Below, piece after piece: positions 11,233 to 49,107 of a DNA stretch of 64,000 bases (positions are counted from its first letter, which is position 1; every line of letters starts with the position of its first letter). A model generated the notes under the pieces. It made no database searches. It saw only the letters and a program-made list of their open reading frames with translations, and was not told the DNA's origin. Location: the NCBI RefSeq assembly GCF_008831285.2, contig NC_045146.1, positions 25,067,703 through 25,131,702 of the forward strand, written 5' to 3'. Position numbers and translations under genes: made by a program. The stretch is from Nymphaea colorata (taxonomy: Eukaryota > Streptophyta > Magnoliopsida > Nymphaeales > Nymphaeaceae).

Positions 11233-11522
11233 AAATCGTGAAGCACCCAACAGCACCTCCATCGGCTGCTTGTCGTGCACAAAACAGTGGTTTGAGTGGA
11301 AAAAATACCTCCCCTCCCAGCCATTGCGAAAAAACCAGGTTTTTTAGCTCCAAAACGTCATTTTGAGCATGCATCCAAACGGGACCTTATAATTTTTATC
11401 AACAATATGACACAACCAAAAAAGGTGTTTCGACCTTGGCCACATTTCATTGACAAACTGTACAAACCTTGTTGCATTTGCAAATTCAGGAAACAAAGAT
11501 TTTCCTAGGAGCAGAAGATTAT

Positions 11523-11642
11523 TTACACAACCACCGAATGTGAAGCTTTTAACCTTAGAATCCTAAAAGCTAAAGAAAACAAGCTTTGTCTCCCAATGGA
11601 AGACTCAGTATTACGTCTCTTCTTGCTCAAACTACGGCTACC
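11523..11642 (-). pseudogene. Terminal-exon-like segment, copy I (unidentified gene)
   Basis: After a TTGCAG acceptor the minus strand reads 39 codons plus TAA, beginning GSRSLSKKRRNTESS and ending LKASHSVVV. The same 120-nt frame recurs at 21829-21948, 29774-29893 and 43652-43771. Basic and serine-rich; family unknown. A copy of a real last exon is inferred from the acceptor and the shared open frame. Confidence 0.45.
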
Positions 11643-13370
11643 CTGCAACATAGACATATGATATCAGTTGAGAGAGTTCAACTCAAGGACTATACAACGT
11701 GCATTTATTGTAAGCAATTCCGAAAACAGCATGTAATGTAAGGACAAGTAACACAGTAAGACGGAATTTTGAGGTTGGTAACGAAAATGATTCATAAATA
11801 AGCACAGACGTGCTCATCTATGTTATATGTGAAAGTGAGTTCAACACTGAAACTTGTAGCCAACTCCACCATCAAAAGGCACTTAACAGATGGAAACTGC
11901 ATTAACATAATATTTTTCTAGCACAGAACCATGTAATGGGACTCAGGAAATGAATGTGAGACGAGTGATTTAATGGTTCTCCAAATGTAAAAGGCCAACT
12001 TGCTCCGACAACAGATGAGAAAGTCGAGATGTTTAGGAAAAGTAGGACCGCATCAGATGTACAAGTTCAACTTAAAAAATGTCTTTTTTCATGCACTCGT
12101 ACATTGAAGCATAGAAAGAAATGATAAAATTCTCCCAATCCCTTTCATCACAACTTTTCATGTTTGGTTGAGCTTCACTAGCTAGCAATTTTCCTCAATA
12201 TAAAAATAAAATAAAAACTATAAAATTTGACAAAACACTCAGAAAAAGTAGAACTGAAAATCTCTTTAATACATAGAATTAAAGAAAGGAGAATCGATTT
12301 TGGTTTTCAAAATTTTGGTTCGTGAGAATCAAAAACAGGGAACAGCTTAAAAATCTATCAAAAATGACTGGAAGATCAAAAAGTCCTGAAATTTTGTGGG
12401 CTAATTTTCGCACAACACCAAGAATCAAATCCAAATTCAATTTTATCGCACAAGGTATACATTGATACGTCCCACCACTAGAATTAGAAAAATAATAGGT
12501 AAGCTTGAACAGAGAAAACAGAAGAAAGAGATCATTGTAATGGTGCTGGAATCTTGTAGGCCTCATCTAGGCTCTATATAGGCATACACCTTGCAATACA
12601 ACTAGTGCTTTCAAGTGTTTGAGGACAGAGCTAGGCATACACCTTGGCAACAAGGAAAGCTAAGCATGAACAGAGAAAACAAAGGAAAAAGATGATTGTG
12701 ATGGTGCAGATGCACATACCTTGAAGGTCTCAAAGCAGTGTTTGAAGACAGAGCTAGGCATACACCTTGGCAGCAGGGAGAATCTAAAGCATTTTGCCAA
12801 CTAGAGCACTATTACGTGATCTTTTATGTGTGTGTGAATTGTAAAACACACAAATATTGTATACCAAGAAGAACAGAACAAAATGAAATTTATGATAATC
12901 CAAAACAATATTGAAAAGAGGACTAGGTTTCCGCCCATGGATGGACCCTTTAAGGTGTAAAACCATTTTCAGGGTTTTCTTGAAATGTTTATATATTCTA
13001 GATTTACCATGTTGTAATATTTACTTTTTCATTATCAATCGCGGGAAGCCCATAAGTGCCTAGCAATCTATATACCATTTTCCAGAACGTGAGGCCAATG
13101 CTGTATTACTTCAAAAAGATTGCTTAATTCAACAGAATCCGCCACAATTTAGCAATCAAAAAGTGGAACTCCAGTAGGAAGTCATGACTGAACATAGAAA
13201 ATGGAATATGAAAGGCTGAGAGAGGGAGAAAACCAAGACCTAGAAGTCGTGACAAGCAATACAAGAATTAAATAAAAGCAGTTGCAAGTAAACTATTCAA
13301 CTCACAGAAACCATAGAAAAATTGCAAGGTTCTTTCAACATAATAGCAAGGCCCTCATTGTAATCCTTAC

Positions 13371-14355
13371 CTCAAACTTTGGTATATTTCTCCTCGTTCC
13401 ACCTTCAAATGCAAGTACAGGGAGGAAGGCAACAGTTCGCCCTTTTATATCCACCCAAAAGTTCTGTTTGGAAAATATTAAACTCAGAACACAAGGATAG
13501 AGAATGATAAATTTAAAAATTAATAAAGAGTTCCACAGAAAGATATGTAACCACATGTACATGAGTGGAGAAAAAGAAAAAGGAAGAAAGTAAGCTAATC
13601 AATCCTAGATTACTTTGCTAGATGAATTTCGAACATGCATAGGTGAATAACCTTCTTTATGAAGCATAGGTGAATAACTTTCTTTGTGAAAAACTGAACA
13701 TATGTCTAACAAATTATGAACACTCCAAATTATTACAAAATCAAATCTTTGGAAAAGTGATATTCTTACCAGAGGCAACTCATTCAATAAGATTCAAAAC
13801 TAATGGAAGTATGTATAATTAAAAGTATCAACAAAATATTGAGGCACATCTAAATTCTAGAAAATCAAAGGATAAGATGAAAGCCATATTTGCAAAAACA
13901 TAAGGACGTTAGGAACTTGGAACAATAAAAGGACCACAAAAATTAGAACTATACAATAATCAAATGCTGATATCTATTCAGAACCAAGTATGACCAAAAA
14001 CACCACAAGCTCAAAGGAAAAAAAAAAAGATCAAATGAATGGAAAACAAGGCACCTAGATTAAGTGCCTTGAAGAAGGTTCCAGGAAAACAGAAGATGCA
14101 GAGAAGTATGAGTTGATGTATGGTAGGGTCATGCATGAAATATGAAATTCCCATTACAGATACAGTCTAGACACGATGCCAAGTAATAATGAGCTCAGCA
14201 AATTAGATACAATAACAGATCATTGCAAACCCTTGCAAATGTTGAGCAGATACCATGTTACTATCAAATCAGATAAAACCAACATCCACGATGCTTATAT
14301 CTGATTTGCAATCAACAACAATGCCAAGAACTGTGTCGCCAACAGATGATAAATA
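13371..14355 (-). pseudogene. RRP40: Exosome subunit RRP40 fragment, copy I
   Basis: Two adjacent exons of the RNA-exosome cap protein RRP40 (EXOSC3 family). The exon at 14355-14299 reads YLSSVGDTVLGIVVDCKSD. The exon at 13463-13371 reads NFWVDIKGRTVAFLP, then VLAFEGGTRRNIPKFE, the S1-domain stretch of plant RRP40. Exon 2 has good borders (CAG acceptor, GAG|GTAAGG donor), and exon 1 has a TTTGCAG acceptor. The exon 1 donor is AT (ATAAGC) where the copy at 29174 has GT, so splicing should fail. I find no N-terminal exons, no KH domain and no C-terminal exons nearby. Called a truncated genomic (intron-bearing) pseudogene. Confidence 0.85.
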
Positions 14356-15089
14356 CTGCAAACCAGATACAGGGTCAGGTTCTGCAGTGACAATAATTAC
14401 AAGAATAAAGGCATTACTATCAACATAACAAGGAGAGAACTACACAAATACCTTGCAATGGTGAGGCAACTCCCACAGAAGCAACTTATAACATGTTATT
14501 AAGTTCTTAGATGAACAGGAAACCATGACGTAATCTTCTCAAGTTCTATCACGACATTAACTACAACACTAAAGGCATTATTATCAACATAACAGGGAGG
14601 AAAATACATAAATGATACTTCCCCTGCAACCATAAGACGTAATTGACAGCTCCCACAGAAGCAACTTATAACATGCTAAGTTATTAGATAGGCATGAAAC
14701 CATGAAACGAAGGAAGGTCAAAGAAGTTCCAGACAATGGACAAGTCTCAGGTAGCAATATATCAATCTGATCACAACTTTATTTGCCAGAATCTCTAAGA
14801 ATTTCAACTTGAGCTTTGTGAGTGCAACTGCTTGTGTGCAGGAGATATATGATCTTTCACCCAAAATATTTCATGAGTATTAAGATGTACCTCAAGGCAA
14901 TGCTATCAAGCTTCTTGAAGAGAACTCTTTACATCTCTAGGATATGAACACAGAGGAGAAACTCTCAGCCTCATAGAAAAGCACAAAAAAGGAGTAAACA
15001 TTGACTTGGAATCTCCCATGTGCAAAAGATTTCTGCAATTGATACTTGAGATTTTCACCCCCATTTTTTCTTTTTTCTTCCTTTTTTTT

Positions 15090-15457
15090 AAGCACTTCCG
15101 AGGTTTGCTTGGAGGAAAGACCACTCCATCACCTTCAACTTAGTGACAGTAGAGAAAAATCACCCCCTCTTGATGCCTTTTTTTTTTGAAGCACTTTAGA
15201 CGTTTGCTTGGAGAAACCTCATTCCATCACCTTCAGCTTAGTGACAGTAGAGAAATCCCCCGCGAGGAAGGCCATTCCACCACCTTCAGCTCAGTGATAG
15301 TACAGAAATCCTCCGTCTTGGTACCCCATATGTTTTTTTTCTTTTTTTTTGTAAGCACTTTGGAGGTTGGTCTGAAGGAACTTCATTCTATCACCTTCAA
15401 CTCAATGACAGTAGAGAAATCCCCCAGCCCCCCTCCTTTACGTGCTTTTTTCTTTTG
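15090..15457. repeat. Roughly 100-bp degenerate tandem repeat, array in copy I
   Basis: Each unit carries AGCACTT-GAGGTTTGCTT, then ATTCCATCACCTTCAGCT, then AGTGACAGTAGAGAAAT, a C-run and a T-run. Related arrays are at 19487-19828, 25992-26483, 31303-31650 and 49085-49290. Units vary mostly in the C- and T-tracts. Apparent open frames here are repeat products. Confidence 0.85.
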
Positions 15458-15949
15458 ATATCCTGTCAGAATCTTATAAAATATGAGGGTTTCTTCTCAT
15501 AGTATTTCATTGTTGAACCATTGCAAATGTCTGATTGTCAAAGTCAACGTAATATCCTTTCCCAAGCTTTCTCAACTTCATTGAACTTCTCCTCATTGCT
15601 CATATCGAAGGTCTTTCAAAATTCCTTTCAGCCAGCTTATAGCAAGAACTTGAAATTTCTCCCCTTCTTCAAGGAAATATTAAAGGTAAATAATGATATA
15701 TCTTGATGTAGACATGACACAGTGTTAGAGATTCCTAACAAAAGAATAGCTCGCGACCATAGATTGGTATACTGCTCAAGAGATCACTTCTACGCATGAA
15801 ATTAGAACTTTGTAAAATCAAGATTTCGAAGGCAACAAAAAAAATTTGAGAAATCTTATTGGAAAGTGGGTTTCAAATATTGAAAACCAAACGATTTTGA
15901 GAAAATTCACTCATTAACTCTTTCAACCCCTCTGCAACGTGGCAGAGGA

Positions 15950-16170
15950 TTTGCAGAGGAAACCCTTGCCTCGAGGCAGAGGGTTTTCTCTGAACTCTGA
16001 CTTGATAGTGTTTCAGAGGCAGAGGGTTTTCTCTGAACTCTGAAACCCTCCGCTTGAGAGTGTTTCAGAGGTAAAGGGTTTTCTCTGAAATCTGAAACCC
16101 TCCGCTTGAGATTGTTTCAGAGGCAGAGGGTTTCCTCTGGTTTCAAAAGCCCTCCGCCTCGAAGCAGAGG
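15950..16170. repeat. 52-bp hairpin-forming minisatellite, copy I
   Basis: Units starting GTTTCAGAGG begin at 16010, 16062 and 16114, exactly 52 bp apart, with diverged partial units on both sides. Each unit contains GAGGGTTT and AAACCCTC facing each other, so each can fold as a hairpin. The same array occurs in copy II at about 26975-27217. Confidence 0.9.
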
Positions 16171-16195
16171 GTGGAGGAAGAGGATTTCTAGCGTT

Positions 16196-16221
16196 GAGAG
16201 AGAGAGAGAGAGAGAGAGAGA
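16196..16221. repeat. (GA)n microsatellite
   Basis: Uninterrupted GA dinucleotides; the equivalent tract in copy II is 27242-27269. It lies in a stretch that looks like a plant 5' leader (CT-rich) on the minus strand. Confidence 0.95.
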
Positions 16222-16503
16222 CCTCTTACAATAGTTTGGTGAGTGGTTGTCGGAGATCCGCTCCGGTGCATCGCTGGTTGCTGGTGCCCCCTAGACAGCT
16301 GCACCTCCCGCAGAATCGAGGAAGGAGAGAAGAGACCTCGAGGGATAGAGAGAAATTGACGTTGAAAATGAGAAAAAAAAGCGAGGACGTTGAAATTAAA
16401 AAGAAAGCGAGGACGTTGAAATTGACCGTTGCGATTACCTTTTTAACTCTCAGCATTTAATGGGAAAGGCCATAAAAGGTAAGGGCTATCCATATGCATA
16501 AAA

Positions 16504-16896
16504 CGTTTGAGGATTTTAACCACTCTTTTCGGATGTTATTTCACTGAATTTAATTTATGGATATACGTCCAACTGCAAATTGAGGAGAATGTTCATGTTA
16601 GACGCCAGTTTGTTTATTACACATAGAAGAACTGAACCTGAATCTCAGTTAAATCAAAATATTTATTTACCACACACGAAAAGGAATAACATGGATTTTC
16701 CTCTCCCTTTTGAAGATTGATCAGAATGAGACTCCGATCTAAGTCTAGTGCTCCGATCTGACTTGGACTCTTCAATAAGCCCAATTTATATTTATAATAA
16801 TCCTCTTTTCCATAACGAATCGATACTATTTTGATGCAATCTGTGTGATCTCAATAGTAGTTTGTTAGGAAACAATCAAAATTAATACAATTAACT
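16504..16896. other. Spacer between cassette copies I and III
   Basis: AT-rich sequence not shared with the cassettes. No gene or structure seen. Confidence 0.5.
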
Positions 16897-19800
16897 ATCA
16901 GCTGAGAGAGTTCAACTCAAGGACCATCTATGTTATATGTGAAAGTGAGTTCAACACTGAAACTTGTAGCCAACTCCACCATCAAAAGGCACTTAACAGA
17001 TGGAAACTGCATTAACATAATATTTTTCTAGCACAGAACCATGTAATGGATCCTCCACCATGTGGACTCAGGAAATGAATGTGAGACAAGAGTGATTTAA
17101 CGGTTCTCCAAATGTAAAAGGCCAACTTGCTGCAACAACAGATTCGAGATGTTTAGGAAAAGTAGGACCGCATCAGATGTACAAGTGAGCAGAACTTGTT
17201 TTCAACAGCATCGGATGAATCTTCAACTTAAAAAATGTCCTTTTTCATGCACTCGTACATTGAAGCATAGAAAGAAATGATAAAATTCTCCCAATCCCTT
17301 TCATCACAACTTTTCATGTTTGGTTGAGCTTCACTAGCTAGCAATTTTCCTCAATATAAAAATAAAATAAAAACTATAAAATTTGAAACAGTCAGAAAAA
17401 GTAGAACTGAAAATCTCTTTAATAGATAGAATTAAAAAAAGGAGAATCGATTTTGGTTTTCAAAATTTTGGTTCGTGAGAATCAAAAACAGGGAAACACT
17501 TAAAAATCTATCAAAAATGACTGGAAGTTCAAAAAATCCTGAAATTTTGTGGGCTAATTTTCACACAACACCAAGAATCAAATCCAAATTCAATTTTATC
17601 GCACAAGGTATACATTGATACGTCCCACCACTAGAATTAGAAAAATAATAGGTAAGCTTGAACAGAGAAAACAGAAGAAAGAGATCATTGTAATGGTGCT
17701 GGTATCTTGTAGGCCTCATCTAGGCTCTATATAGGCATACACCTTGCAATACAACTAGTGCTTTCAAGTGTTTGAGGACAGAGCTAGGCATACACCTCGG
17801 CAACAAGGAAAGCTAAGCATGAACAAAGAAAACAAAAGAAAGAGATGATTGTGATGGTGCACACGCACTTAACTTGAAGGTCTCATCTGGGCACCATAAA
17901 GCAGTTTTTGAAGACAGAGCTAGGCATACACCTTGGCAGGGAGAATATAAAGCATTTTGCCAACTAGAGCACTATACGTGATCTTTTATGTGTATTTTAT
18001 GTGTATGTGTGAATTGTAAAACACACAAATATTGTCTACCAAGAAGAACAGAAATGAAATTTATGATGATCCAAAACAATATTGAAAAGAGGACTAGGTT
18101 TCCACCCATGGATGAACCCTTTAGGAGGTGTAAAACCATTTTCAGGGTTTTCTTGAAATGTTTATACATTCTAGATTTACCTAGATGCCATGTTGTAATA
18201 TTTACTTTTTCATTGTCAATCGAGGGAAGCCCATAAGTGCCTAGCAATTAACGTTGCCTCAATATTAAACAAGTGGAAATGCAAACTAGCTGAACAATAT
18301 GTGGACATGATAACAAAGAATACTCACCCCCTAAAAGACTAGCACCCATATGCTGACAAGAAGAGATTTTCTGGTCGGAAGGAGAGAAAGAGAGATGAAC
18401 ATGGTAAGTGAGGAGAAGAAGCATAAATGCACATAAAAAAAATAATAAAGATGAGAACTTTCCAACGACAAAAAAAAAAAAACAATTGAATATGACAAGA
18501 GAACAATACTTACCTGAAGAGGGAAATCAATACCATGGAGAAAGAGAGGGAGGGAAGGGGGGGGCGGGGGGGTAGGGACCCAAATTTGATAAGTTTTTTG
18601 GCAGTTAACCTTCTACTTAAGCCATGTCGACCCTTCACAAACAAAAATGGAGAAAAAGGGTTCCCCTTCCCAAAAACCCCATTATACGAACACAGCCAAG
18701 CATGGCCTAAACTTAATCCCAAACTAAACCAAATTCCACTAATTTCAGTCTGCCATAAGAGAAGTTAAGAAGAGGAAGGGAAGTCACCAAAAAAAAGGTT
18801 CTTTCCTGCACCTCCTAAACTGAGAAGGTGTCCTGCCAAACTAATTGGCCAACTCTCTTCCATTCCCCTCCCCTCAAACCTCCAAAGAAAGCACTTGCTT
18901 GAAGTAGAAAACACATGGTTGCTTCTCATCAAGGACCTCTTCAAGCATCAGGGTGTTGTCATTGATTTAAATGAAGGTTATGATTTAATACTTTAACAAA
19001 GAGTCTTAGGTTTGATCCTACTTTGGTGAGGCAGCAAGGATTAATTGTGGGCAAAATAGTTCGATGCAACAATAACACTAGGGGGATGAATTTTGTTTGA
19101 AAACTTTGCTTACACTTTTTTCATGAGCAAAAGGTGAACAATATCTCAATATGATCACAACTTTATTTGCCAGAATCTCTAAGAATTTCAACTTGAGCTT
19201 TGTGACATATTCTCTTTCACCCAAAATATTTCATGAGTATTAAGATGTACCTCAAGGCATTGCTATGCTATGCTATCAAGCTTCTTGAAGGGAACTCTTT
19301 ACATCTCTAGGATATGAACACAGAGGAGAAACTCTCAGCCTCATAGAAAACACAAAAAGGGAGTAAACATTGACTTGGAATCTCGCATGTGCAAAAGATT
19401 TTTGCAATTGATACTTGAGATTTTTGCACCCCAAACTTTATAAATCCTGACAGGTACCTTTTTTTTCTTTTTTCTTCCTTTTTTTTAAGCACTTCCGAGG
19501 TTTGCTTGGAGGAAATGCCACTCCATCACCTTCAGCCGCGAGGAAGCCCATTCCATCACCTTCAGTGATATCACTACAGAAATCCTCCGTCTTGGTGCCC
19601 CATATGTTTTTTTTCTTTTTAATTTTTTTATAAGCACTTTTGAGGTTTGCTTAAAGGAAACTCATTCCATCACCTTCACCTCAGTGACAGTAGAGAAATC
19701 CCCCCACACTCTTGGTGCTCCCTTTTCTTTATTCTCATTTTAGCACTTTGGAGGTTGGTCTCACCTTCAACTCAATGACAGTAGAGAAATCCCCCAGCCC

Positions 19801-20293
19801 CCTCCTTTACGTGCTTTTATTTTTTTTTGATATCCTGTCAGAATCTTATAAAATATGAGTTTCTTCTCATAGTATTTCATTGTTGAACCCTTGCAAATGC
19901 CTGATTGTCAAAGTCAATGTAATATCCTTTCCCAAGCTTTCTCAAACTCATTGAACTTCTCCTCATCAAAATTCCTTTCAGCCAACTGATAGCAAGAACT
20001 TGAAGTTTTTCCATTTCCTCAAGGAAATATTAAAGGTAAATAAAGATATACCTTCATGTAGACATGGCACGGTGATGAAGCCAGAGTAGAATTCTTAGAG
20101 ATTCCTAGGAAAAGAATAGCTCTCCACCATAGATTGGTATACTGCTCAAGAGATCACCTCTACTCATGAAATTAGAACTTTCTAAAATCAAGATTTCAAA
20201 GGCAACAAAAAGAAAAAAAACAAATTTGGGAAATCTTTTTGGAAAGTGGGTTCCAAAATATTGAAAACCAACCTATTTTGAGAAAATTCACTC
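16897..20293 (-). repeat. Cassette copy III (rearranged)
   Basis: Matches copy I modules near 11.68-13.07 kb (here 16897-18240) and 14.76-15.9 kb (here 19140-20293). The RRP40-bearing module is missing; in its place is 18240-19140, shared with about 30.62-31.28 and 44.69-45.29 kb. A recombined copy with a block swap rather than a simple deletion. Confidence 0.75.
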
Positions 20294-21536
20294 ATTAGTC
20301 GGATTTTTTTATTGGATGGTAAAACAGTACATTTTCACTCATTTAACAATTGACTTGACAGAAATGAGCTTTTGAATATCTTTGATTAACCATGGGAAAA
20401 CTTAAGTTTAGTTTTAGCAACATCAAAAAGGAAGGTGCACTTTTTGTTATCCCCAAAAGTTTAGGCCCACGTTTGACAATTTACCAAATCTTTGTACATC
20501 TAAAGAACTAGTTGAAGTTTGAAGCTTCTCAGCAACCAATTAACTAACGGGCTTAGGGACCAGATTATGCTGAGAGATGCATCAGCTTATCCAATTAATA
20601 AAACTATTCATCTTCAACTTGAGGGTCTTGAATCCGATAGCCAGATAGGCAGCACTTGTGATGTCAAAGCTCAATAAGATTCTTACAAGGACAGAACAAG
20701 ATTCCTCTTTTAATGAAATGAAAGAGAAACTTAACAGTTTGAACATCAGCTAGAAATCAAGAACCATAAAACCAAGCTGACGTCAATTTTCCCCTAAAGA
20801 AAATGAGATGCAAATAGACATGATTTTCCAGTGCTGCACACGCCAATGCCTCATATAGCACTTTTGGAAAAGTGATATTCTTACCAGAGGCAATCATTCA
20901 ATAAGATTTAAAACTAACGGAAGAATGTATAATTAAAAGTATCAACAAAAAATTCAGGCACATTTAAATTCTAGAAAATCAAAGGATAAGATGAAAACCA
21001 TATTTGTCAAAACATAAGGACGTTTCATTTGGAAGCTCAGTTCAACGCGTCGTCACCAAGATGAGATGTTGGAAGCTCAGGAAGAAGTTCCAAAGGAAGG
21101 GAATGGATCTCATTGTCCCCTTTCGGAGATATTTTATAGACCTCTACCCTGAACATTTGATTTCTTCTAATCTACAAAGCACTAGTATGAAGCTCAAAAA
21201 CAACTTATCAGGTTAATAACATTTATTATTAAGATGAAGCATGTGTGGGCTCAAAAAACCTTTTTATTTTTATATTGACATTTCAGAGTAATTTTTCTCA
21301 TTTAAGTATTGGTGCTCCTTGAAAAATTAAAATTTTATACTTACTGCCTTTTACAAGAGGGGTGAAATGCTTGTCTCGTCACTCTTTGATGACATCTTAC
21401 CGTCGTCTCTTTGATCGCATTCCACCAATGCTCTTACATGACTCCTTCTGCCAGCACTAGCACTTCAGATGCACTTTCTAACATTCTTAAACAGTTCTGG
21501 ATTTCATAGTTGTCAAGAGGTCGTGCACATCAGTGA
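20294..21536. other. Spacer with a short intron-module remnant
   Basis: 20866-21025 is a partial copy of the intron next to the RRP40 exon in other copies. 21030-21075 contains a piece also seen near 40.2, 43.4 and 47.5 kb (CACCAAGATGAGATGTTGG). The rest is AT-rich with no supported gene. Confidence 0.5.
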
Positions 21537-21828
21537 AATCGTGAAGCACCCAACAGCACCTCCATCGGCTGCTTGTCGTGCACAAAACAGTGTTTTGAGT
21601 GAAAAAAAGACCTCCCCTCCCAACTTTTGCAAAAAAACCAGATTTTTTAGCTCCAAAACGTCATTTTGAGCATGCATCCAAACAGGACCTTAAAATTTTT
21701 ATCAAAACAGTATGAGACAACCAAAAAAGGTGTTTCTACGTTGGCCACATTTCATTGACAAACTGTACAAACCTTGTTGCATTTGCAAATTCAGGGAAAC
21801 AAAGATTTTCCTAGAAGCAGAAGATTAT

Positions 21829-21948
21829 TTACACAACCACCGAATGTGAAGCTTTTAACCTTGGAATCCTAAAAGCTAAAGAAAACAAGCTTTGTCTCCC
21901 AATGGAAGACTCAGTTTTAAGTCTCTTCTTGCTCAAACTACGGCTACC
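21829..21948 (-). pseudogene. Terminal-exon-like segment, copy II
   Basis: Same 40-codon frame as at 11523-11642, with an intact TTGCAG acceptor. Reads GSRSLSKKRLKTESSIGR at its start and ends SHSVVV then TAA. Family unknown. Confidence 0.45.
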
Positions 21949-23102
21949 CTGCAACATAGATATATTGCTGAGAGATTTCAACTCAAGGACCATACAACGT
22001 GCATTTATTGTAAGCAATTCCGAAAACAGCATGTAATGTAAGGACATGTAACAGTAAGACTGAATTTTGAGGTTGGTAACGAAAATGATTCATAAATAAG
22101 AAAAGCACAGACATGCGCTCATCTATGTTATATGTGAAAGTGAGTTCAACACTGAAACTTGTAGCCAACTCCACCATCAAAAGGCACTTAACAGATGGAA
22201 ACTGAGTTAACATAATATTTTTCTAGCACACAACCATGTAATGGATCCTCCACCATGTGGACTCAGGAAATGAATGTGAGACAAGAGTCATTTAACGGTT
22301 CTCCAAATGTAAAAGGCCAACTTGCTCCGACAACAGATGAGAAAGTCGAGATGTTTAGGAAAAGTAGGACCGCATCCGATGTACAGGTTCAACTTAAAAA
22401 AAAATGTCCTTTTTCATGCACTCGTACATTGAAGCATAGAAAGGAATGATAAAATTCTCCCAATCCCTTTCTTCACAACTTTTCATGTTTGGTTGAGCTT
22501 CACTAGCTAGCAATTTTCCTCAATATAAAAATAAAATAAAACTATAAAATTTGACAAAACACTCAGAAAAAGTAGAACTGAAAATCTCTTTAATACATAG
22601 AATTAAAAAAAGGAGAATCGATTTTGGTTTTCAAAATTTTGGTTCGTGAGAATCAAAATCAGGGAACAAAATCTATCAAAAATGACTGGAAGATCAAAAA
22701 GTCCTGAAATTTTGTGGGCTAATTTTCGCCAAGAATCAAATCCAAATTCAATTTTATCGCACAAGGTAGGTATACATTGATACGTCCCACCTCTAGAAAT
22801 AGAAAAAAAATAGGTATGCTTGAACAGAGAAAACAGAAGAAAGAGATCATTGTAATGGTGCTGGTATCTTGTAGGCCTCATCTAGGCTCTATATCCTTGC
22901 AATACAACTAGTGCTTTCAAGTGTTTGAGGACAGAGCTAGGCATACACTATGGCAACAAGGAAAGCTAAGCATGAACATAGAAAACAAAGGAAAAAGAAG
23001 ATTGTGATGGTGCAGATGCACATACCTTGAAGGTCTCTCATGTGGCACCATAAAGCAGTGTTTGAAGACAGAGCTAGGGATACACCTTGGCAGTAGGGAG
23101 AA

Positions 23103-23664
23103 GGCCGGGTAGGGATAAGATAGTCATTTAGTCAGTTCATAACAATCTCTTTCAAGCAAGGTGGGAAGCAAAGTCTCCGTCAATGCAAGTTCTCTTGCTG
23201 GCGTCTAGCTGCTACGAGAAGAAGATATGTTTCAAGCTTCACACGGCCCTGAGGAAGCCAAAACACCCTGAGGAAGCCAAAACACCCTCGCCGAAGGCTC
23301 CGCTTGACGTTGCTCGTTGGCCAAGCAACCAAAGCCGGGACCTAGGTGTCCATAGTGAAAGAGAAGTAATTTATCCGATTGAGGCACACGTTGAAGAACC
23401 AGCAAGAGCTTCCGTGGCTCCGAAAGCAAATCCAATTGCGAAATTCATTCAAGCATTCAAGCGTTCGAGATGCACCGAGCAACCGCGCAGCAACACTCAA
23501 GGCTCTTTTGAAGTCAGGACTCATTGCAAATTGTATGGCTCATTGCAAATTGTATGCCATTAGTACTTTCCTTAGATTGCAAATTGTATGCCATTAGTAC
23601 TTTCCTTAGAGAAAATTGTATGCCATTTAGTACTTTCCTTAGTACTTTCCTTAGAGAAGGACAT
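23103..23664. mobile_element. 562-bp insertion in cassette copy II
   Basis: Absent from copy I, where the flanking modules are nearly contiguous. It is more GC-balanced than its surroundings. Its right end contains three or four short direct repeats built on CAAATTGTATGCCATTAGTA and TAGTACTTTCCTTAG (about 23523-23655). An open frame (23183-23563) shows no recognisable domain. Could be a solo-LTR-like or other mobile fragment; no clear target-site duplication seen. Confidence 0.5.
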
Positions 23665-27238: not shown

Positions 27239-27272
<34 letters not shown>

Positions 27273-38220: not shown

Positions 38221-38754
38221 GCATTAAGACATCAAAAGAGGGGAATGTGATCAAGTAAGAGTTGAACAATGAATTAAGGATTTATCTAGGGAATCGGAAT
38301 ATGAGAGGGCATCGGTTGATGAACATAAAGTTGCACCTTAAGAAAGGCAAGATTGGTCTTCCTGCCTTCAATCATAAACAATGGCTACCAAAGGGAAGAC
38401 CATTCGTATGAACTACATGCATCCCTTGCTCTCTATCTCTCTCTCACAAGAATCTAATGTCAACACAGCACCTACTGAAACTGAATGCAGGGGCCAAGTG
38501 CTCGAAGCCAGTGGAGCTGCTGGTGATAGAGGAGGTGGATGTACCTCCCCTCAGCCATGGGAGGTCTAAGCCAAGATCATCAGCCCGCACCGACATCGCC
38601 TTCTCGACTCTCCCACTCACGATATTTTCCTACCTCTACATCATTATATACTATGCACTTGTCATACACAGAAGTGCTAAGAAAAGGGAGGGACGAAGAA
38701 TGAAGAAATCAAATTCATCATCTTAATCCAACATTTAAAGAAAACAATCAAACT

Positions 38755-39030
38755 AGCGGTGAGCTGATCACCACTATAGATGGAAGACGGTGAGCAAAAT
38801 CACCGGTATAGATTCCGTGGCACATGTATACCGGTGAACGCATCACCGCTATAGAATGTTATACGGGCGATTATGTTCACCGGCGAAGGCTTCTCTAGCG
38901 GTGCTTTTTTCCATCGCTAGAGAATTATACAGGCGACAATAATCACCGCTGGAATCATTCTATACCGGTGAACGCGCCACCGGTTTAGCCAATAATACCG
39001 GCGACAACAATCACCGCTGAACGCTGCATC
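38755..39030. repeat. Cluster of inverted CCGGTGA/TCACCGG motifs, copy A
   Basis: Within about 275 bp the short motif (T)ATACCGGTGA or TCACCG(G/C)TATAG and variants (GGCGA, CTAGCGGTG, CATCGCTAGAG) appear many times in both orientations. Dense short inverted motifs of this GC-core type are known from subterminal regions of plant CACTA transposons. The terminal CACTA sequence itself is not identified. The copy in B is 56905-57165. Confidence 0.55.
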
Positions 39031-39268
39031 TAGCTCCCTACCCACACCCTCAATCTATCCATTGGCATTTTTTGCAGCAGTGCTTGGCCTTCTATGTCTA
39101 TTTTCCATGAACTAATAAAATTTATATTTTTCAATTTCTGGAAAGTTATGGAATTTAGTCACGGAATTTCAGAAGTCCATTTGATTTGGAAATTTAAATT
39201 AATATAAGTTAAAAAATCAAATTAATTTATGCAGTTAAATTTAACTATAATCAACGTTAGGATAAATC

Positions 39269-39367
39269 AAAACCGATACATCTCACAACCAGCTTCTTGA
39301 AACCGGTACACCTCACACAACTCCGTTCTTGAAACCGATACATCCCACAACTCTATTTTTGAAACCG
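39269..39367. repeat. Roughly 33-bp minisatellite (AAACCGATACATC)
   Basis: Three to four degenerate units, each with AAACCG(A/G)TACA(T/C)C followed by TCACAAC and CTTG. Copy B (from about 57388) has lost most of the array. Confidence 0.75.
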
Positions 39368-39429
39368 ATTAGATCCATTTCTAGACTACTCATTGTTTGT
39401 TAACATTTAAGTGGGGGTTGCTGGTTTCA

Positions 39430-40250
39430 TAAAAGGAGCAGGGATCAGCTAAAATAGATCGTGCACCATTTTTCAGAAACAATATTTTGGAAATCAACAC
39501 CTTAAGTTATTTCTCGAAAATGTCAGGAAGGAGCAGAGAGAATGTATAGTACATTCCTCAATTTTTGTCAGTTACATTTGCTAAAATAAATAGGGGACCC
39601 CAAGACAGCAAACCATCCTACGGCGGCCCAGAAATTACAAACAGAACCAGCTATACTTGAAAGCTAAACCAAAACAGATATGTACAATTATTTACACATA
39701 AAAAAGATCCAACACAAACTAGAAACAAGAAAAAAAAAAACAATTCTTTTTCCATTTTGATGAAGAATACGAATGAAAACAGTCTGTTCCTAAAGGCAAT
39801 TTTAAGTTTTTCTTGTTCTTTTTCAAACAAATCAGTGATAATAAATCATAACTCTAATCCTACGATGAACAAAGGATAAAAAATTCAGCTAAATATGCTA
39901 TAGATGAAGAATGAAAATGGCAAAACAAACTAAAATTAATGCAATTCTATAAATCAACACTTCTCTACAATGCATGCATGAAAGGTTCCTGCATAGAGAA
40001 GACAGCAATTCTACCTTGGTATTTGGGGAGAAGCTTGACAATTCATCTCCTTTGTTGAACAATCCGCCGCTGACAATCCATCTCTTAATGTAGGACGACT
40101 CTTGGCTAACGTGGGATGCCCAAAGAAGATGAGCATGTTCAAGTTAAGAAATTATGGACGTGAGAATAGGCTATTCAAGAGGACATGGGCTTCAAGGCTT
40201 CACCAAGATGAGATGTTGGAGGCAGTCAAGAGTTCAAGACCTCACCTAAC
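39430..40250. repeat. Module i, copy 1
   Basis: A roughly 0.7-0.8-kb block starting AAAAGGAGCAGGGATCAGCT and ending near CACCAAGATGAGATGTTGG. Repeated at 42700-43430, 46834-47525 and 57930-58579 (cut by the N gap). On the minus strand it contains an open stretch reading RWIVSGGLFNKGDELSSF before a possible AAG|GTAGAA donor; family unknown. Confidence 0.7.
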
Positions 40251-40410
40251 AAACCCAAGCCCGTATGTACCCCTAACCCCAGTGCGTATGGCAGGAAAAG
40301 AAACACACAAAGCAAGAAAAAAACAAGCAAACAAACAAAAGAAAAGGCTCATTGGAGAATATATAAAAGCTGGCATAAATCAGAAATATAAAAAAAAAAA
40401 AAATCTTTAC

Positions 40411-40810
40411 CATCAACTGCTTCGCCAACATCCCTAGAAGATAAACCAAATACTTCTATCCAAGTCTTTGAGAACAGTGCACATGCTAATATCATAAAAA
40501 CAATAAAGAAAAGAGCACGGAATGGATTGGCTGCCATATCTGCCAGGCTGCAATACATCTTCAAGTTATTAGATTTGTAGACAAATTATGTAATGAGAAG
40601 AGGAGAAAAAGAATAATATTGCTTGGAAAAAAATAGGTAAAACAGCACCAAGATACATCATTTAAATGCAAGGAAATGAATAAGAAAAATAATCACCTCG
40701 ATGGTGCTGTAAGTAGTAAGAAATACCACCAAGAGGAATAAACTGGCCACCTACATATTCAGATACCTTCCGTATTCCTGGAAATTTCAACGGTACCTCC
40801 AGCAAAGCAA
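40411..40810 (-). pseudogene. SEC61A: SEC61 alpha translocon subunit, two-exon fragment
   Basis: SEC61 alpha is the ER protein-conducting channel. The exon at 40810-40697 reads VSEYVGGQFIPLGGISYYL, and the exon at 40547-40411 reads SLADMAANPFRALFF, then ACALFSKTWIEVFGLSSRDV, the penultimate transmembrane region of eukaryotic SEC61 alpha. Borders are GT-AG and the split-codon phase fits. Two single-base changes break it: one A missing after SYYL (YYLTAPSS expected, LQHHR read), and one extra G after SSRDV (AKQL expected, GEAVD read). The N-terminal and C-terminal parts of the roughly 475-aa protein are absent. An intron-bearing pseudogene fragment within the cassette zone. Confidence 0.88.
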
Positions 40811-40974
40811 CTGCAACAGGAATAATACACAGGAAGAAATGATAAAATGCTCCTAATCCATTTCTTCACAACCTCTTGGTTGAGCTTCATTGCAGCAATT
40901 TTCCTCAGTAGTATGAAAATACAGTGCAAACAGAAATGTCGGACACATCCATATGTCATACAAGATACATGATT

Positions 40975-42320
40975 AATGGCCCACGTTGGCTTCCAGATGA
41001 ATCTTCAACTTAAAAAATGTCCTTTTTCATGCACTCGTACATTGAAGCAGACAAAGAAATGATAAAATGCTCCTAATCCCCTTCTTCACAACTTTTCATG
41101 TTTGGTTGAGCTTCCTTAGCTAGAAACTTTCCTCAATATAAAAATGAAATAACAACTATAAAATTTGACAAAACACTAAGAAAAAGTAGAATTGAAAATC
41201 TCTTTGATAGAAAGAATTAGGTGAATCTTCAACTTAAAAAATGTCCTTTCTCATGCACTCGTACATTGATGGAAAGAAATGATAAAATGCTCCCAATCCC
41301 TTTATTCACAACCTTTTATGTTTGGTTGAGCTTCACTAGCTAGAAATTTTCCTCAATATAAAAATAAAATAAAAACTATAAAATTTGACAAAACACTCAG
41401 AAAAAGTAGCATTGAAAATCTCTTTAATAGATAGAATTAAAAAAGTGAGAATTGATTTTGTTTTTCAGAATTTTGGTTCGTGAGAATCAAAAACAGGGAA
41501 TAGCTTAAAAATCTATCAAAAATGAAACGAAGTTCAAAAACTCCCAAAATTTTGTGGGCTAACTTTCACACATCGCCAAGAATGAAATCCAAATTCAATT
41601 TTATCGCACAAGGCATACATCGATACGTCCCACCACTAGAATTAGAAAAAAAAAGGTAAGCTTGAACAGAGAAAACGGAAGAAAGAGATCATTGTGATGG
41701 TGCTGGTATCTTGAAGACCACATCTAGGCTCTATATAGGCAAACAACTTGCAATACAACTAGTGCTTTCAAGTGTTTGAGGACAGAGCTAGGCAAACACC
41801 TTGGCAACAAGGAAAGCTAAGCACGAACAGAGAAAACAAAAGAAAGAGATGATTGTGATGGTGCAGATGCAGATGCACGTACCTTGAAGGCCTCATCTGC
41901 GCACCATAAAGCAATGTTTGAAGACAGAGCTAGGCATACACCATGGCAGCAGGGAGAATATAAAGCATTTTGCCAACTAGAGCACTATTAAGTGATCTTT
42001 TACGTGTATGTGTGAATTGTAAAACACACAAATATTGTCTACCAAGAAAAACAGAACAAAATGAGATTATGATCTTCCAAAACAATATTGAAAAGAGGAC
42101 TAGGCTTCCACCCTTGGATGGACCCTTTAGGAGGTGTAAAACCATTTTCAGGGTTTTCTTGAAATGTTTATATATTCTAGATTTACCAAGATGCCATGTC
42201 GTAATATTTATTTTTCATTGTCAATCGAGGGAAGCCCATAAGTGCCTAGCAATTAACGTTGCCTCAATATTAAACAAGTGGAAATGCACACTAGCAATTA
42301 ACGTTGCCTCAATATTTTTT
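40975..42320 (-). repeat. Cassette copy V (partial)
   Basis: Intron-like modules matching copy I 12.05-13.07 kb. The first of these blocks (CTTCAACTTAAAAAATGTCC) is present two to three times in tandem within 40.99-41.45 kb. No exon recognised. Confidence 0.7.
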
Positions 42321-42394
42321 ACGTTTTCCGGTTAGTTTTTTCATTTATCTTTTTTTTTTAGACCTCATCTTTTTGAAAAAAAATGTCTAACTCT

Positions 42395-42670
42395 TTTCAA
42401 GATTTCCTCGTGATTTTCAGTTTTGTCAAAAAATACCCCAAAAAAAACCTCACCTGTTAACGATCTTTCTATTCTGGCTATGGATGGTGAACTAGTGACG
42501 TATCCCTCATTCGTAGGCCAAGCGCAAGCAATACTGAAGCCCGAGACCTTAATTGTTTACAACATCTGCATGGCTCACCAAATGCAGACAGCTTGGAGAA
42601 ATCTGCATGGCTCACCAAATGTAGACAGCTTGGAGAAACAACTGAGTGAATTCAAACTTACGTTTGTTTA
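42395..42670. repeat. Module h, with a 37-bp tandem duplication
   Basis: Shared with 28325-28612 and 46540-46830. Only this copy carries ATCTGCATGGCTCACCAAAT-type units twice in tandem (42564-42600 and 42601-42637). An open frame across it is extended by the duplication; it matches no family I know. Confidence 0.75.
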
Positions 42671-42699
42671 CATCGTTCCCTTTTGCTCAATGCATGTAG

Positions 42700-43430
42700 C
42701 AAAAATAGATCGTGCACCATTTTTCAGAAACAATATTTCAGAAATCAACACCTTAGGTTATTCCTCGAAAATGTCAGCCATGCCAATCTGATCACTCAGA
42801 CAGAAAGAAAGGAGCAGGTATAATGTATAGTACATTCCTCAATTTTTGTGCAGTTACATTTGCAAAAATAAATAGGGGACCCCAAGACAGCAAACCATCC
42901 TACGCCACCCAGAAACTAGAAACAGAATGTACAATTCTTTACACATAAAAAAGAACAATTTTTTTTCCTTTTTTATGAAGAATAGGAATGAAAACAGCCA
43001 GTTCCTAAAGGCAATTTTAAGTCTTTTTTGTTCTTTTTCAAACAAATTAGTAATAATTAATCATAACTCTAATCCTAAGATGATGAAATGATCAAAAGTT
43101 CAGCTAAATGTGCTATACATGAAGCATGAAAATAGCAAAACAAATCAAAATTAATACAACGCAATAAATCAACGCTTCTCTACAATGCATGCATGAAAGG
43201 ATCCTACATAGAGCAATTCTACGTTGGTATTTGGGGAGAAGCTTGACAATTGATCTCCTTTGTTGAACAATGCGCAGCCACAATCCATCTCTTAATGTAG
43301 GACGACTCTTGGCTCACGTGGGATGCAGAAAGAAGATGAGCATGTTCAAGTTAAGAAATTAAGAGGCTATTCAAGAGGACATGGGCTTCAAGGCTTCATC
43401 ACCAAGATGAGATGTTGGAAGCTCTGGAGT
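42700..43430. repeat. Module i, copy 2
   Basis: Diverged copy of 39430-40250, with several short deletions. Confidence 0.7.
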
Positions 43431-45400
43431 GTTTTGAGTGAAAAGAAGACCTCCACTCCCAGCTTTTGCAATAAAACCAGGTTTTTTAGCAGCTAAACGT
43501 CAATTTTGAACATGCATCCAAATGGGACCTTAAAATTTTTATCAACAATATGGCACAACCAAAAAAGGTGTTTCGACGTTGCCCACATTCCATTGACAAA
43601 CTGTACAAACTTTGTTGCATTTGAAAGATTTTTCTAGAAGCAGAAGATTATTTACACAACCACAGAATGTTAAGCTTTTAACCTTGGTATCCTAAAAGCT
43701 AAAGAAAACAAGCTTCGTCTCCCTTTGGAAGACTCAGTTTTACGTCTCTTCTTGCTCAAACTACGGCTACCCAGCAACATAGACATATGATATCAGTTAA
43801 GAGAGTTCAACTCAAGGACCATACAACGTGCATTTATTGTAAGCAATTCCGAAAACAGCATGTAATGTAAGGACATGTAACAGAAAGACTGAATTTTGAG
43901 GTTGGTAACCAAAAAAGAAAAGCACAGACGCGTTCATCTATGTCATATGTGAAGGTGAGTTCAACACTGAAACTTGTAGCCAATTCCACCATCAAAAGGC
44001 ACTTAACAAATGGAAACTGCATTAACATAATATTTTTCTAGCACAGAACCATGTAATGGATCCTCCACCATGTGGCCTCAGGAAATGAATGTGAGACAAG
44101 ATTTCTCCAAACGTAAAAGGCCAACTCTCTGCGACAACAGATGAGAAGTCGAGATGTCTAGGAAAAAAGAAGGACCGCATCAGATTCACAAGTGAGCAGA
44201 ACTTGTTTTCAACCGCATCAGGTGAATCTTCAACTTAAAAAATGTCCTTTTTCATGCACTCGTACATTGATAGAAAGAAATGATAAAAAATCCCTTTCTT
44301 CACAACCTTTTATGTTTGGTTGAGCTTCACTAGCTAGAAATTTTCCTCAATATAAAAATAAAATAAAAACTATAAAATTTGACAAAACAGATGATTGTGA
44401 TGGTGCAGATGCACGTACCTTGAAGGTCTCATCTAGGCACCGTAAAGCAGTGTTTGAAGACAGAGTAAGGCATACACTTTGGCAGCAGGGAGAATATAAA
44501 GCATTTTGCCAACTAGAGCACTATTACGTGATCTTTTATGTGTATGTGTGAATTGTAAAACACAAATATTGTCTACCAAGAAAAACAGAACAAAATGAGA
44601 TTTATGATCATCCAAAACAATATTGGAAAGAGGACTAGGTTTCCACCCTTTGATGGACCCTTTAAAGAAAAGAAAAACAATTGAATATGACAACAGAACA
44701 ATACTCACCTGAAGAGGGAAATCAATACCATGGAGAAAAAGAGAGAGAGGGTGGGGGGCCCAAATTTGGGAAGTTTTTTGGCGGTTAACCTGTTACTTTA
44801 ACCATGTAGACCCTTCACAAACAAAAAATGGAGAAAACCCCATTATACAAACACAGCCAAGCATGGCCTAAAGTTAATCCCAAACTAAACCAAACTCCAC
44901 TAATTCAGTCTGCCATAAGAGAAGTTAAGAAGAGGAAGGTAAGTCACAAAAAAAAAAAAAAAGGCTCTTAACTGCACCTCCTAAACTGAGAAGGTGTCCT
45001 GCCAAACTAATTAGCCATCTCTCTTCCATTCCCCTCAAACCTGCAAAGAAAGCATTTTTGGTTGAAGTACAAACACATGGTTGCTTCTCATCAAGGACCT
45101 CTTCAAGCATCAGGGTGTTGTCATTGATTTAAATGAAGGTTATGATTTAATACTCTAACAAAGAGTCTTAGGTTTGATCCATTGGTGAAGTAAGACAGCA
45201 AGGATTAATTGTGGGAAAAATAGTTTGATGTAACAATAAAACTAGGTGGATGAATTTTGTTTGAAAACTTTGCTTTTTCATGAGCAAAAGGTGAGCAATA
45301 TATCAATCTGACCACAACTTTATTTGCCAGAATCTCTAAGAATTTCAACTTGAGCTTTGTGAGTGCAACTGTTCGTGGGCAGGAGATATTGGAATTCGTA
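43430..45400 (-). repeat. Cassette copy VI (partial)
   Basis: Contains the terminal-exon module, intron modules, the block shared with copies III and IV (44.69-45.29 kb), and the beginning of the tandem-array module. The RRP40 module is missing. Confidence 0.72.
43652..43771 (-). pseudogene. Terminal-exon-like segment, copy VI
   Basis: Same frame as the other three copies, but with a premature TAA after RIPRLKA and a lost acceptor (CTG for CAG). The most decayed copy. Confidence 0.45.
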
Positions 45401-45484
45401 ACTACTTAGTGCAAGATTTATCAATCCAATATGAAGACCCGCCCATATGCATCTGTTTTGCCACTAGGGGCGGTTGAAAATTGC

Positions 45485-46098
45485 TTAAGAATCCCCTTTT
45501 GCTAGGTGATCAATCCCTGAAAAGGCAGGTGAAAATTTATTGCAACTTGGCTGCTTACAACTGAATCCATCATTTTTGGGAGCTTCATTCTCCAAAATCT
45601 CCGAACCTACAAATGCAACATCAGGATTTCCATGACTAAATTGGAAAGAAGAAGCTGCAATTGCAGATGATATGTGCGTCCCAAGGCTCAAAGATAGCCC
45701 TTGCCCTTGCACAACAGTTACATCTGCCCTTGTCCACTTTGCAAGATTTGCAACTGTGTCCCCATACCCACCTCACGGCTCAGTGCTGAGATTCAAAGTG
45801 TCACAGGCCAAATCATTACCACCATTTATTTGTTCTCAGATGCCCAACATATTAGTAACTGCTGGTCGCATAAACAATTCCTTCCTACCATCCCTCCACG
45901 TATTCAAAATGCTTTCCTCAAGGCGAGGTGCAAGATCTGGCAGGTTTGTTTGTATATGTACTGGCAGTTGAATAGTTAATATACATCATGTGCCCAGGAA
46001 GTGCCAAACCTAGGAAGCGATTCTTGACTACCATCCTTCAAATACAAGGTAGGCGTAACATCACTTTGAATACTAGAACCAGAGAAATATGTAGCCAT
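45485..46098 (-). pseudogene. BEL1-like homeodomain protein, 5' exon pseudogene
   Basis: BEL1-like (BLH) proteins are TALE homeodomain transcription factors that pair with KNOX proteins. The minus strand begins MATYFSGSSIQSDVTPTLYL at 46098, shifts frame, then reads NTWRDGRKELFMRPAV, two in-frame stops, and QGQGLSLSLGTHISSAI, then SSFQFSHGNPDVAFVG and a stop after HLAKGDS. This order matches the N-terminal half of BLH first exons (the SLSLG block precedes the SKY/BELL region). The SKY, BELL and homeodomain parts are absent. It lies between cassette copy VI and module h and occurs once. Dead by frameshift and stops. Confidence 0.8.
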
Positions 46099-46539
46099 GA
46101 CCATCTTCTCTAATTTAACTGTGGAAGGTTCAATATCAGCTAAGCGTGAAAGAGTACACCTAGAATCGAAGGATAGGATGGAAAGGGAACCCATTCAAAT
46201 AAGTGTTTTCAGCAACCACATGATGAACATTTTCTTTTCAGATTGGCAACAAACTCAGGCAGTATAATTCCCTTGCTTTAAAAAAAAAAATCTATCCGGA
46301 ATGTTCACATTTCCTGCTTCCTCCAACTTAATTCCTATTCTTAGCATCATGGAATCACTTTGTGATCATGATGCTTCACACCAGGACATGAGGCATAGTG
46401 TGTGTCACTCGCCCTTGTGATATTTGTCCATCCTTTCGCCGCTCACCAATTGGGCCATAAATCCATTGAGGAATATTAGACTGTATGAATTTGGATAGCA
46501 TCTCTTAGTGATGATGACTATTATGTACGATTTCCTCCT

Positions 46540-47525
46540 GATTTTCAGTTTTGTCAAAAAATACCCCAGAAAAAACCTCACCATTTAAAACCAGTTAACG
46601 ATCTTTCTGGCTTGGATGGGGAACTAAGTGACATATCCCATCTACCTTACCAAGTTTGAATCAGATGCACTTCATTCGTAGGCCAAGCGCAAGCACTCCT
46701 ATACTGGAGACCGAGACCTTAATGTTTACACCATCTGCATGGCTCACCAAATGCAGGCAGCTTGGAGAAACGGCCGAGTGAATTCAAACTTATGTTTGTT
46801 GTTTACGCATCTTTCCCTTTTGCACAATGCATGTAGAGTAAAAGGAGCAGGGATCAGCTAAAATATTTTGGAAATCAACACCTTAAGTTACTTCTCGAAA
46901 ATGTCAGCCATGCCAATCTGATCACTCAGACAGAAAGGAAGGAGCAGCGAGAATGTATAGTAATACTAGAAAGCTAAACCAAAACAGATATGTACAGTTC
47001 TTTACACATAGAAAAGATCCAACACAAACTAGAAACAAGAAAAAAAAAATAGTTCTTTTTCCTTTTTAATGAAGAATACGAATGAAAACAGACTGTTCCT
47101 AAAGGCAATTTTAAGTTGTTTTTGTTCTTTTCCAAACAAATCAGTGATAATAAATCATAACTCTAATCCTACGATGAACAAAGGATCAAAATTTCAGCTA
47201 AATATGCTCTACATGAAGCATGAAAATCGTAAAACAAATTAAAATTAATGCAATGCTATAAATCAACTCTACAATGCATGCATGAAAGGTTCCTACATAG
47301 AGAAAACAGCAATTCTACCTTGGTATTTGGGGAGAAGCTTGACAATTCATCTCCTTTGTTGAACAATCCACAGCGCACAATCCATCTCTTAATGTAGGAC
47401 GACTCTTGGCTCACGTGGGATGCCCAAAGAAGATGAGCACGTTCAAGTTAACAAATTAAGGACGTGAGAATAGGCTATTCAAGAGGACATGGGCTTCAAG
47501 GCTTCATCACCAAGATGAAACGTTG
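46540..47525. repeat. Modules h and i, copy 3
   Basis: 46540-46830 repeats 42395-42670, and 46834-47525 repeats 39430-40250. The h-i-cassette order matches that at 42.4-45.4 kb, so h+i+cassette behaves as one larger repeating unit. Confidence 0.72.
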
Positions 47526-49107
47526 GAAGCTCTGTTTCTTCACAACCTCTTGGTTGAGCTTCATTGGCCAGCAATTTTCCTCAGTATGAAAATACACTGC
47601 ATACAAAAACGTTGGACACATCCATATGTCATACAAGATACGTGATTAATGGCTCATGTTGGCTTCCATTAATGGCTCATGTTGGCTTCCAGATGAATCT
47701 TCAACTTAAAAAATGTCCTTTTTCGTGCACTCGTACATTGAAGCACAGAAAGAAATGATAAAATGCTCCTAATCCCTTTCTTCACAACTTTGGTTGAGCT
47801 TTACTAGCTAGAAATTTTCCTCAATATAAGAATAAAATAAAAACTATAAAATTTGACAAAACACTCAGAAAAAGTAGAATTGAAAATCTCTTAAATAGAT
47901 ACAATTAATAAAGTGAGAATTGATTTTGGTTTTCAGAAATTTTGGTACGTGAGAATCAAAAACAGGGAATAGCTTAAAAATCTATCAAAAATGACTGGAA
48001 GCTCAAAAAATCCTGAAATTTTGTGGGCTTTCTTTGTGAAAAACTGAACATATGTCTAACAAATTATGAACACTCCAAATTATTACAAAATCAAATCTTT
48101 GGAAAAGTGATATTCTTAACAGAGGCAACTCATTCAATAAGATTCAAAACTAACGGAAGAATGTATAAGTAAAAGTAACAACAAAATATTCAGGCACATT
48201 TAAATTCTACAAAATCAAAGGATCAGATGAAAGCCAAATTTGTCAAAAGTCAAAACATAAGGACGTTAGGAACTTGGAACAATAGAGGTCCACAAAAATT
48301 AGAACTATACAATAATCAAATACTGATGTCCATTCAGAACCAAGCATGCCCAAAACACCACAAGCTCAAAAAAAAAAAAATCAAATGGATGGAAAACAAG
48401 GCACCTAGATAATTAAGTGCCTTGAAGAAGGTTCCAGGAAAACAGAACATGCAGAGAAGTACACAAAGTCTGAGTTGATGTATGGTAAGGTCATGCATTA
48501 AATATGAAATTCACATTATAGAAACAGTCTAAACACGATACCAAGAAATAATGAGGTCAGCAAATTAGATACAGTAACAGATCATTGCAAACCCTTGCAA
48601 ATGTTGAGCAGATACCATGTTACTATCAAATCAGATAAAACCAACATCCATGATGCTTACAGATGGAAAACAACCAACAACAATGCCAAGAACTGTGTAG
48701 CCAACAGATGGAAAATACTCCAAAGACAGATACAGGGTCAGGTTATGCAGTAACAATAATTACAAGAATACAGGCATACACCTTGCAACACAACTAGTGC
48801 TTTCATGTGTTTGAGGACAGAGCTAGGCATACACCTTGACAACACGGAAAGCTAAGCACGAACAGAGAAAACAAAAGAAAGAGATGATTGTGATGGTGCA
48901 GATGCACGTACCTTGAAGGCCTCATCTGAGCACTATAAAGCAGTGTTTGAAGACAGAGCTAGGCATACACCTTGGCAGCAGGGAGAATATAAAGCATTTA
49001 TGTGTACCTGTGAATTGTAAAACACACAAATATTGTCTACCAAGAAGAACGGAACAAAATGAGATTTATGATCATCCAAAACACATCACCTTCAGCTCAC
49101 CGTCTTG
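47525..49107 (-). repeat. Cassette copy VII (partial)
   Basis: Intron modules, the RRP40 first-exon module (about 48020-48770) and the leader into the tandem array. It joins directly to large-duplication copy B. Confidence 0.72.
48661..48717 (-). pseudogene. RRP40: RRP40 exon, decayed copy VII
   Basis: Reads YFPSVGYTVLGIVVGCFPS. It keeps 57 nt and a GT donor, but the conserved Asp residues and the KSD end are changed. Acceptor is GGAG rather than GCAG. Clearly non-functional. Confidence 0.75.

Follow-up and report, generated by a model that had tools for sequence, protein, structure and literature searches.

A gene-fragment mosaic in Nymphaea colorata with features of a chimeric segmental-duplication family

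Introduction

Segmental duplications are blocks of at least 1 kb that recur in several places at an identity of at least 90%. In plants, clusters that combine fragments of several genes are usually attributed to Helitrons or to Pack-MULEs. For Helitrons, a filler-DNA model and stepwise acquisition of sequence are described in part of one published account (PMC6544945); for Pack elements with terminal inverted repeats (TIRs), part of another describes template switching with microhomology (PMC8277862). Here we analyze a 64,000-nucleotide stretch of the Nymphaea colorata genome (contig NC_045146.1; hereafter, the window), in which intron-bearing pieces of RRP40, SEC61-alpha, and BEL1-like genes are combined with copies of a repeated cassette. 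Literature searches, at the level of their result entries, returned no published account of this gene-fragment mosaic. We estimate a probability of about two in three that the mosaic belongs to a family of chimeric segmental duplications (duplicons) of low copy number, in which microhomology-mediated template switching, or filler repair, acted together with duplication.

The assembly comprises 407.8 Mb in 783 contigs, which we number with the prefix C; the window is C9:25067703-25131702, in a contig of 25,178,754 bases.

Results

The gene pieces in the window match three intact, unlinked loci on C5, C8, and C6. The RRP40 fragment at 13065-14757 (minus strand) corresponds to C5:18689758-18691528, introns included, with an identity of 85.3% over 1,814 columns when gaps are counted and of 93.9% for aligned bases. 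The sequence at 20307-20863 is the following stretch of the same locus (91-92%), which has an RRP40-type KH exon at C5:18696024, 4.5 kb beyond the matched part. The SEC61-alpha fragment (40216-40823, minus strand, with introns) matches C8:3198168-3198779 at 80.7%, inside an intact minus-strand gene (C8:3196728-3200768) whose exons are readable throughout. Because the Pfam SecY model (PF00344) did not detect this piece in the window, and a search of two of its open reading frames (ORFs) at E ≤ 0.1 gave no SecY detection either, its identification comes from the DNA comparison with C8. The BEL1-like fragment (45383-46315, minus strand), which takes in the 5' portion of a coding exon along with the DNA upstream of it, has its best match at C6:10029782-10031285, in three pieces of 84.9, 85.8, and 90.9% identity, with POX exons adjoining. 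Its middle part is also found at about 10 other loci (77-82%), so this piece may form a dispersed set of its own. We also observed that the 5' stretch at 45532-46113 recurs at 77-84% on C6, C8, C10, C13, and C14, at loci that have no POX match of their own.

Introns and noncoding flanks are kept in the RRP40, SEC61-alpha, and BEL1-like pieces, which argues for copying at the DNA level and excludes processed RNA copies. An earlier note on this DNA, made by a model from the letters alone, had given these three gene names and proposed intron-bearing capture from several unrelated genes; the names hold, the likely parent genes that it suggested seeking have been located, and the proposal agrees with their positions. 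The uniform orientation and conserved introns of the mosaic would also suit one ordinary multi-exon locus, the outcome that the earlier note named as contrary to its proposal, or a tandem gene family. We consider either scarcely credible, because the pieces match unlinked parents and because ORFs of ≥150 amino acids in the window gave no gene match, except for two stop-to-stop frames of 238 and 194 amino acids. The 194-amino-acid frame (37409-37993, plus strand), which has a partial copy at 55576-56140, was the one tested and has no Pfam match above the cut-off; a WEB1-like name considered for it is unsupported. Among ten chosen ORFs, the only Pfam match above the cut-off was I29 (cysteine protease propeptide), with RRP40_S1 falling below. 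Two RRP40 exons are 97.2 and 93.9% identical to C5, compared with 93.9% overall, and are too short to judge selection. The pieces, from at least three ordinary genes, are broken and apparently noncoding, and nothing points to a function for the mosaic.

A BLAST search of the window against itself (E ≤ 1e-20, nonself matches) gave 88 direct pairs and no inverted ones, confirming the shared orientation that the earlier note gave for most modules; repeat pairing in the window is far above chance. Among these pairs, 11815-13067 matches 16925-18248 at 89.7%, 12790-15405 matches 23665-26327 at 94.7% over 2.7 kb, and 32349-39305 matches 50530-57422 at 97.8% over 7 kb. The cassette can be traced in seven copies, which we designate A (11233-16866), B (16925-20297), C (21536-27523), D (28225-31583), F (40216-42295), G (42313-45390), and E (46529-49290). 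All are assigned to the minus strand (for copy A, that of the RRP40 exons inside it), and the segments used for the tree described below start at 12687, 17840, 23699, 30420, 41844, 44386, and 48879. The copies were delimited by self-BLAST, supplemented by a right-end search for A, whose likeness to C1 persists to about 16866 on the right, by the RRP40 search for B, and by the cassette tree for E, F, and G. The earlier note had at least seven copies with RRP40; the number of copies stands, but RRP40 sequence is present at five places only, all on the minus strand. These are the fragment in A described above, 20301-21024 (with a 0.7-kb internal deletion relative to C5; copy B itself, at its middle position, has no RRP40), 23924-25635 in C, 28604-29667 in D, and 48028-48777 in E. 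Copies F and G (about 40216-42295 and 42313-45390) contain no RRP40 sequence.

A larger repeating unit, also recognized in the earlier note, proved real. This 18.2-kb unit starts at 31440 and recurs up to 58579; its first copy was delimited at 31440-40046 (self-BLAST and genome copies) and its second, 18.2 kb from the first, at 49108-58579 (self-BLAST), neither with an assigned strand. At that point a 100-N assembly gap begins (58580-58679), the sole N run found in a base scan of the window. The mosaic itself is confirmed over the span first given for it, 11233-49107, but the structure continues to 58579 by way of the larger unit.

Among the matches listed, relatives of the cassette occur on at least C1, C3, C6, C10, and C13 and at other C9 sites. 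Two copies on C1 carry an E-type RRP40 piece, and copies without RRP40 are found on C3 (four), C6 (two), C10 (two), C13, and C9 at 7.27 Mb (one). An 8-kb stretch, C10:3662000-3670000, is matched at 100% at C9:7.27 Mb and on the small contig C274 (again among the matches listed), reflecting either very recent duplication or redundant assembly.

The copies have an inner SEC61 breakpoint in common, while their outer limits differ. In 7 of 12 copies (C10b, C13, two on C1, two on C6, and the window) the breakpoint lies at C8:3198778/3198779; in the other five (C10 and four on C3) the SEC61 match ends 48 to 63 bases earlier, at C8:3198716-3198731, and C3a, after a small deletion, rejoins the same sequence that follows the breakpoint elsewhere. 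On the left, the SEC61 piece ends at six different C8 positions (3193848, 3194021, 3195984, 3198000, 3198168, and 3198425), and the right limits of the cassette copies vary too. A candidate cassette end at CCATATGCATAAA (16502/27523) was rejected on alignment, in which likeness extends past it in most copies. C6 copy 1 and C3a to C3d also have DNA in common on the left side of the SEC61 piece, and C6 and C3b a further 0.7 kb outside it (84.9%). This speaks for duplication, because a transposon copy would not carry its flanks.

The earlier note connected the mosaic with Helitrons and Pack-type elements, cautioning that it saw no ends or enzymes and that the mechanism was inference; our searches likewise found no fixed ends and no match to the Helitron enzyme domains sought. 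No fixed outer ends common to independent copies were found, given the six left limits and differing right limits. Old, decayed gene-capturing Helitrons would require that an autonomous Helitron moved the cassette, that captures occurred as filler DNA, and that the ends were later lost. Such elements would account for several unlinked genes, retained introns, stepwise gain, and junction homologies of 2 to 6 bp, but, besides the absence of fixed ends, C3 and C6 copies have flanking DNA in common. A scan of 11001-49200 for the CTRR motif with hairpin, covering the 3' signature alone of the Helitron end signatures, found one site (23345), away from cassette edges, as against 8, 7, 2, 2, 2, 8, 1, 1, 4, and 2 sites in ten mononucleotide shuffles. 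Genome-wide, Helitron_like_N (PF14214) gave no candidates (and no control hit either) and PIF1 (PF05970) no match from 5 scored candidates; in both cases a missing match does not prove absence, but MULE transposases, the positive contrast, proved plentiful. We regard a Helitron origin as rather unlikely.

A Pack-MULE or other Pack-TIR element seems improbable. The genome does hold MULE transposases (PF10551; at least 141 matches among 150 scored, genome-wide), but the ends are variable and none of the 25 inverted pairs examined, out of 53 of ≥24 nucleotides, resembled cassette TIRs; these were mostly GA/CT or A/T runs or internal to copies. Although the Helitron or Pack-type label is thus not borne out for the mosaic, such capture is possible as a first step, but its defining features were sought without success.

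Short homologies were read at five RRP40 junctions. For copy A these are AAT on the left (3 bp) and AGCAA on the right (5 bp against the cassette copy at 45289, shorter if compared with that at 19139); for copy E they are CT on the left (2 bp) and AGGCAT on the right (6 bp); and the junction internal to B has 1 bp. Microhomology at these five junctions sums to 17 bp, compared with a mean of 3.8 bp when the same sequences are joined at random (P about 6e-5); with only the four RRP40-cassette junctions, the sum is 16 bp (P = 4e-5). These lengths were taken by eye, and two of seven RRP40 junctions were omitted, 20301 for a possible short insertion and 21024 because its partner was not established. 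Joins of this kind are compatible with template switching, with end joining, and with filler repair. Because the Helitron filler model fits as well, microhomology cannot decide between rival origins.

RRP40 occupies three cassette positions: one in A, C, and D, a second in E, and a third in B. Its right junction is common to A, C, and D and its left junction to A and C. Each of the seven cassette rows compared (A, C, D, E, two from C1, and one from C9:11.27 Mb) has a 29- to 31-bp deletion, which is absent from C5 and from an RRP40 fragment at C13:8.57 Mb; three more rows from C9:11.2 Mb are identical to E. The common deletion suggests a single capture as the source of the cassette's RRP40 copies, with reshuffling afterward, and it weakens the alternative that each piece was captured separately.

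The C13 fragment (within 8567000-8573000) is a separate 1.55-kb piece of RRP40, 89.8% identical to C5, that adjoins cassette right-end sequence. Together with the three cassette positions, it raises the idea that the cassette is a template-switching hotspot that repeatedly gains and reshuffles pieces of the same host genes without transposon ends, or else an undescribed mobile element; we find this doubtful. The cause of such a hotspot would perhaps be the minisatellite-rich right half of the cassette. Minisatellite-like stretches are seen there at 15060-15460, 19440-19800, 26020-26460, and 31325-31640; many alignments start or stop in them, and they are possible breakage hotspots.

We built a tree from 409 bases of the cassette (26 rows; matches in C1 and C3d were too short to be included). 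In it, all 17 C9 rows and one C10 row form a group with support of 94/95, and C3, C6, C13, and the other C10 rows fall outside it. Because of this clustering, the C9 arrays look like a local expansion. At C9:11.19-11.28 Mb, 72,663 of 90,000 bases match the window, and the 18-kb unit is present in both orientations; the longest match, 43733-58579 against C9:11227792-11242639, is 99.3% identical over 14.9 kb. Since this match stops at a 100-N gap on both sides (window position 58579 and C9:11242639), the inverted layout at C9:11.2 Mb may in part be a scaffolding effect. That near-identical stretches stop at gaps in both arrays would also favor dismissing the mosaic as an assembly artifact. However, 11233-58579 contains no N run, the copies differ by 1 to 28%, which simple assembly doubling would not give, and six chromosome-scale contigs carry relatives of them; we consider an artifact very improbable.

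As for its surroundings, the mosaic spans 11.2-49.3 kb of the window and sits to the right of two genes: exons at about 0.7-1.3 kb, which by eye we take to be those of triosephosphate isomerase, and a cysteine protease (Pfam I29) that begins at 4.9 kb. The right edge of the window is 47 kb short of the C9 contig end. We rejected that end as a telomere; its final 3,000 bases contain a single CCCTAAA motif and no telomere array. Some of the sequence in the first larger-unit copy is part of unit H (31645-36586), a dispersed family in its own right. Within C6:2.5-190 kb, unit H occurs in both orientations as seven copies of about 4.2 kb plus two that are shorter, and it has further copies on C12, C11, C10, C1, and C3; it has no clear coding content.

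Discussion

We propose that the base cassette formed when part of the SEC61-alpha gene on C8, including introns and the DNA downstream, became linked to other sequence; for the SEC61 part, the common inner breakpoint shows this step. The cassette would then have spread to several chromosomes by duplication, with varying outer limits and some flanks included; here the pattern is what we observe and duplication is the process we infer. In the C9/C1 lineage, the cassette may next have gained the C5 RRP40 piece at junctions with 2 to 6 bp of microhomology; these junctions are observed, and they would be explained by template switching or by repair of a break with filler DNA. This piece would have lost about 30 bp and then been recopied to another cassette position. 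Finally, the composite would have been amplified locally by tandem duplication, and the 18-kb unit duplicated from one to the other of the C9 sites at 25.1 and 11.2 Mb.

Beyond the by-eye junction lengths and the omitted junctions, several points weigh against this account. The donor of the non-SEC61 remainder of the base cassette was searched for and not found. The spread over six chromosomes exceeds what simple tandem duplication usually yields, and the variable ends could reflect deletions that an old element underwent later. As for a single RRP40 capture, the 29- to 31-bp deletion could have been a donor allele. Over 254 columns that include the C13 fragment, no substitution unites the cassette copies against C5 and C13 (6 are C5-only and 6 C13-only), and in the RRP40 tree C5, the A/C/D group, and the E group come close to a trifurcation. 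The C13:8.57 Mb fragment is a second, independent RRP40 piece, so recurrent capture of RRP40 is possible.

The mosaic is a cluster that matches neither Helitrons nor Pack-MULEs, and its parents and junctions have been traced at base level, together with part of the order of events. It thus offers a test case for how much plant gene-fragment shuffling comes from replication or repair errors and segmental duplication, and it illustrates that captured introns alone are insufficient for a Helitron call. A true absence of Helitrons from this genome, if real, would deserve attention.

Compared with Pack-MULEs and Pack-TIRs, the mosaic is similar in its gene pieces with short junction homology and in their probable capture by template switching, as part of the account cited above describes for those elements (PMC8277862), and differs in its variable ends and in having no TIR among the inverted pairs examined. 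Like plant gene-capturing Helitrons, it contains several gene fragments copied at the DNA level with their introns and has filler-type junctions; unlike them, it showed in our searches neither fixed ends nor a CTRR hairpin signal above chance, and the genome gave no Rep/PIF1 match. Compared with mosaic duplicons, best known in primates, it differs in its plant host and in its small blocks (0.1-2 kb), among which fragments of three genes predominate. It resembles those duplicons in several ways. Blocks from unlinked parents on C5, C8, and C6 are joined at inner junctions held in common and are co-duplicated with their flanks; outer edges are variable; copies are both clustered and interchromosomal; and repeated blocks reach 94.7% identity over 2.7 kb, 97.8% over 7 kb, and 99.3% over 14.9 kb, within the size and identity range of segmental duplications.

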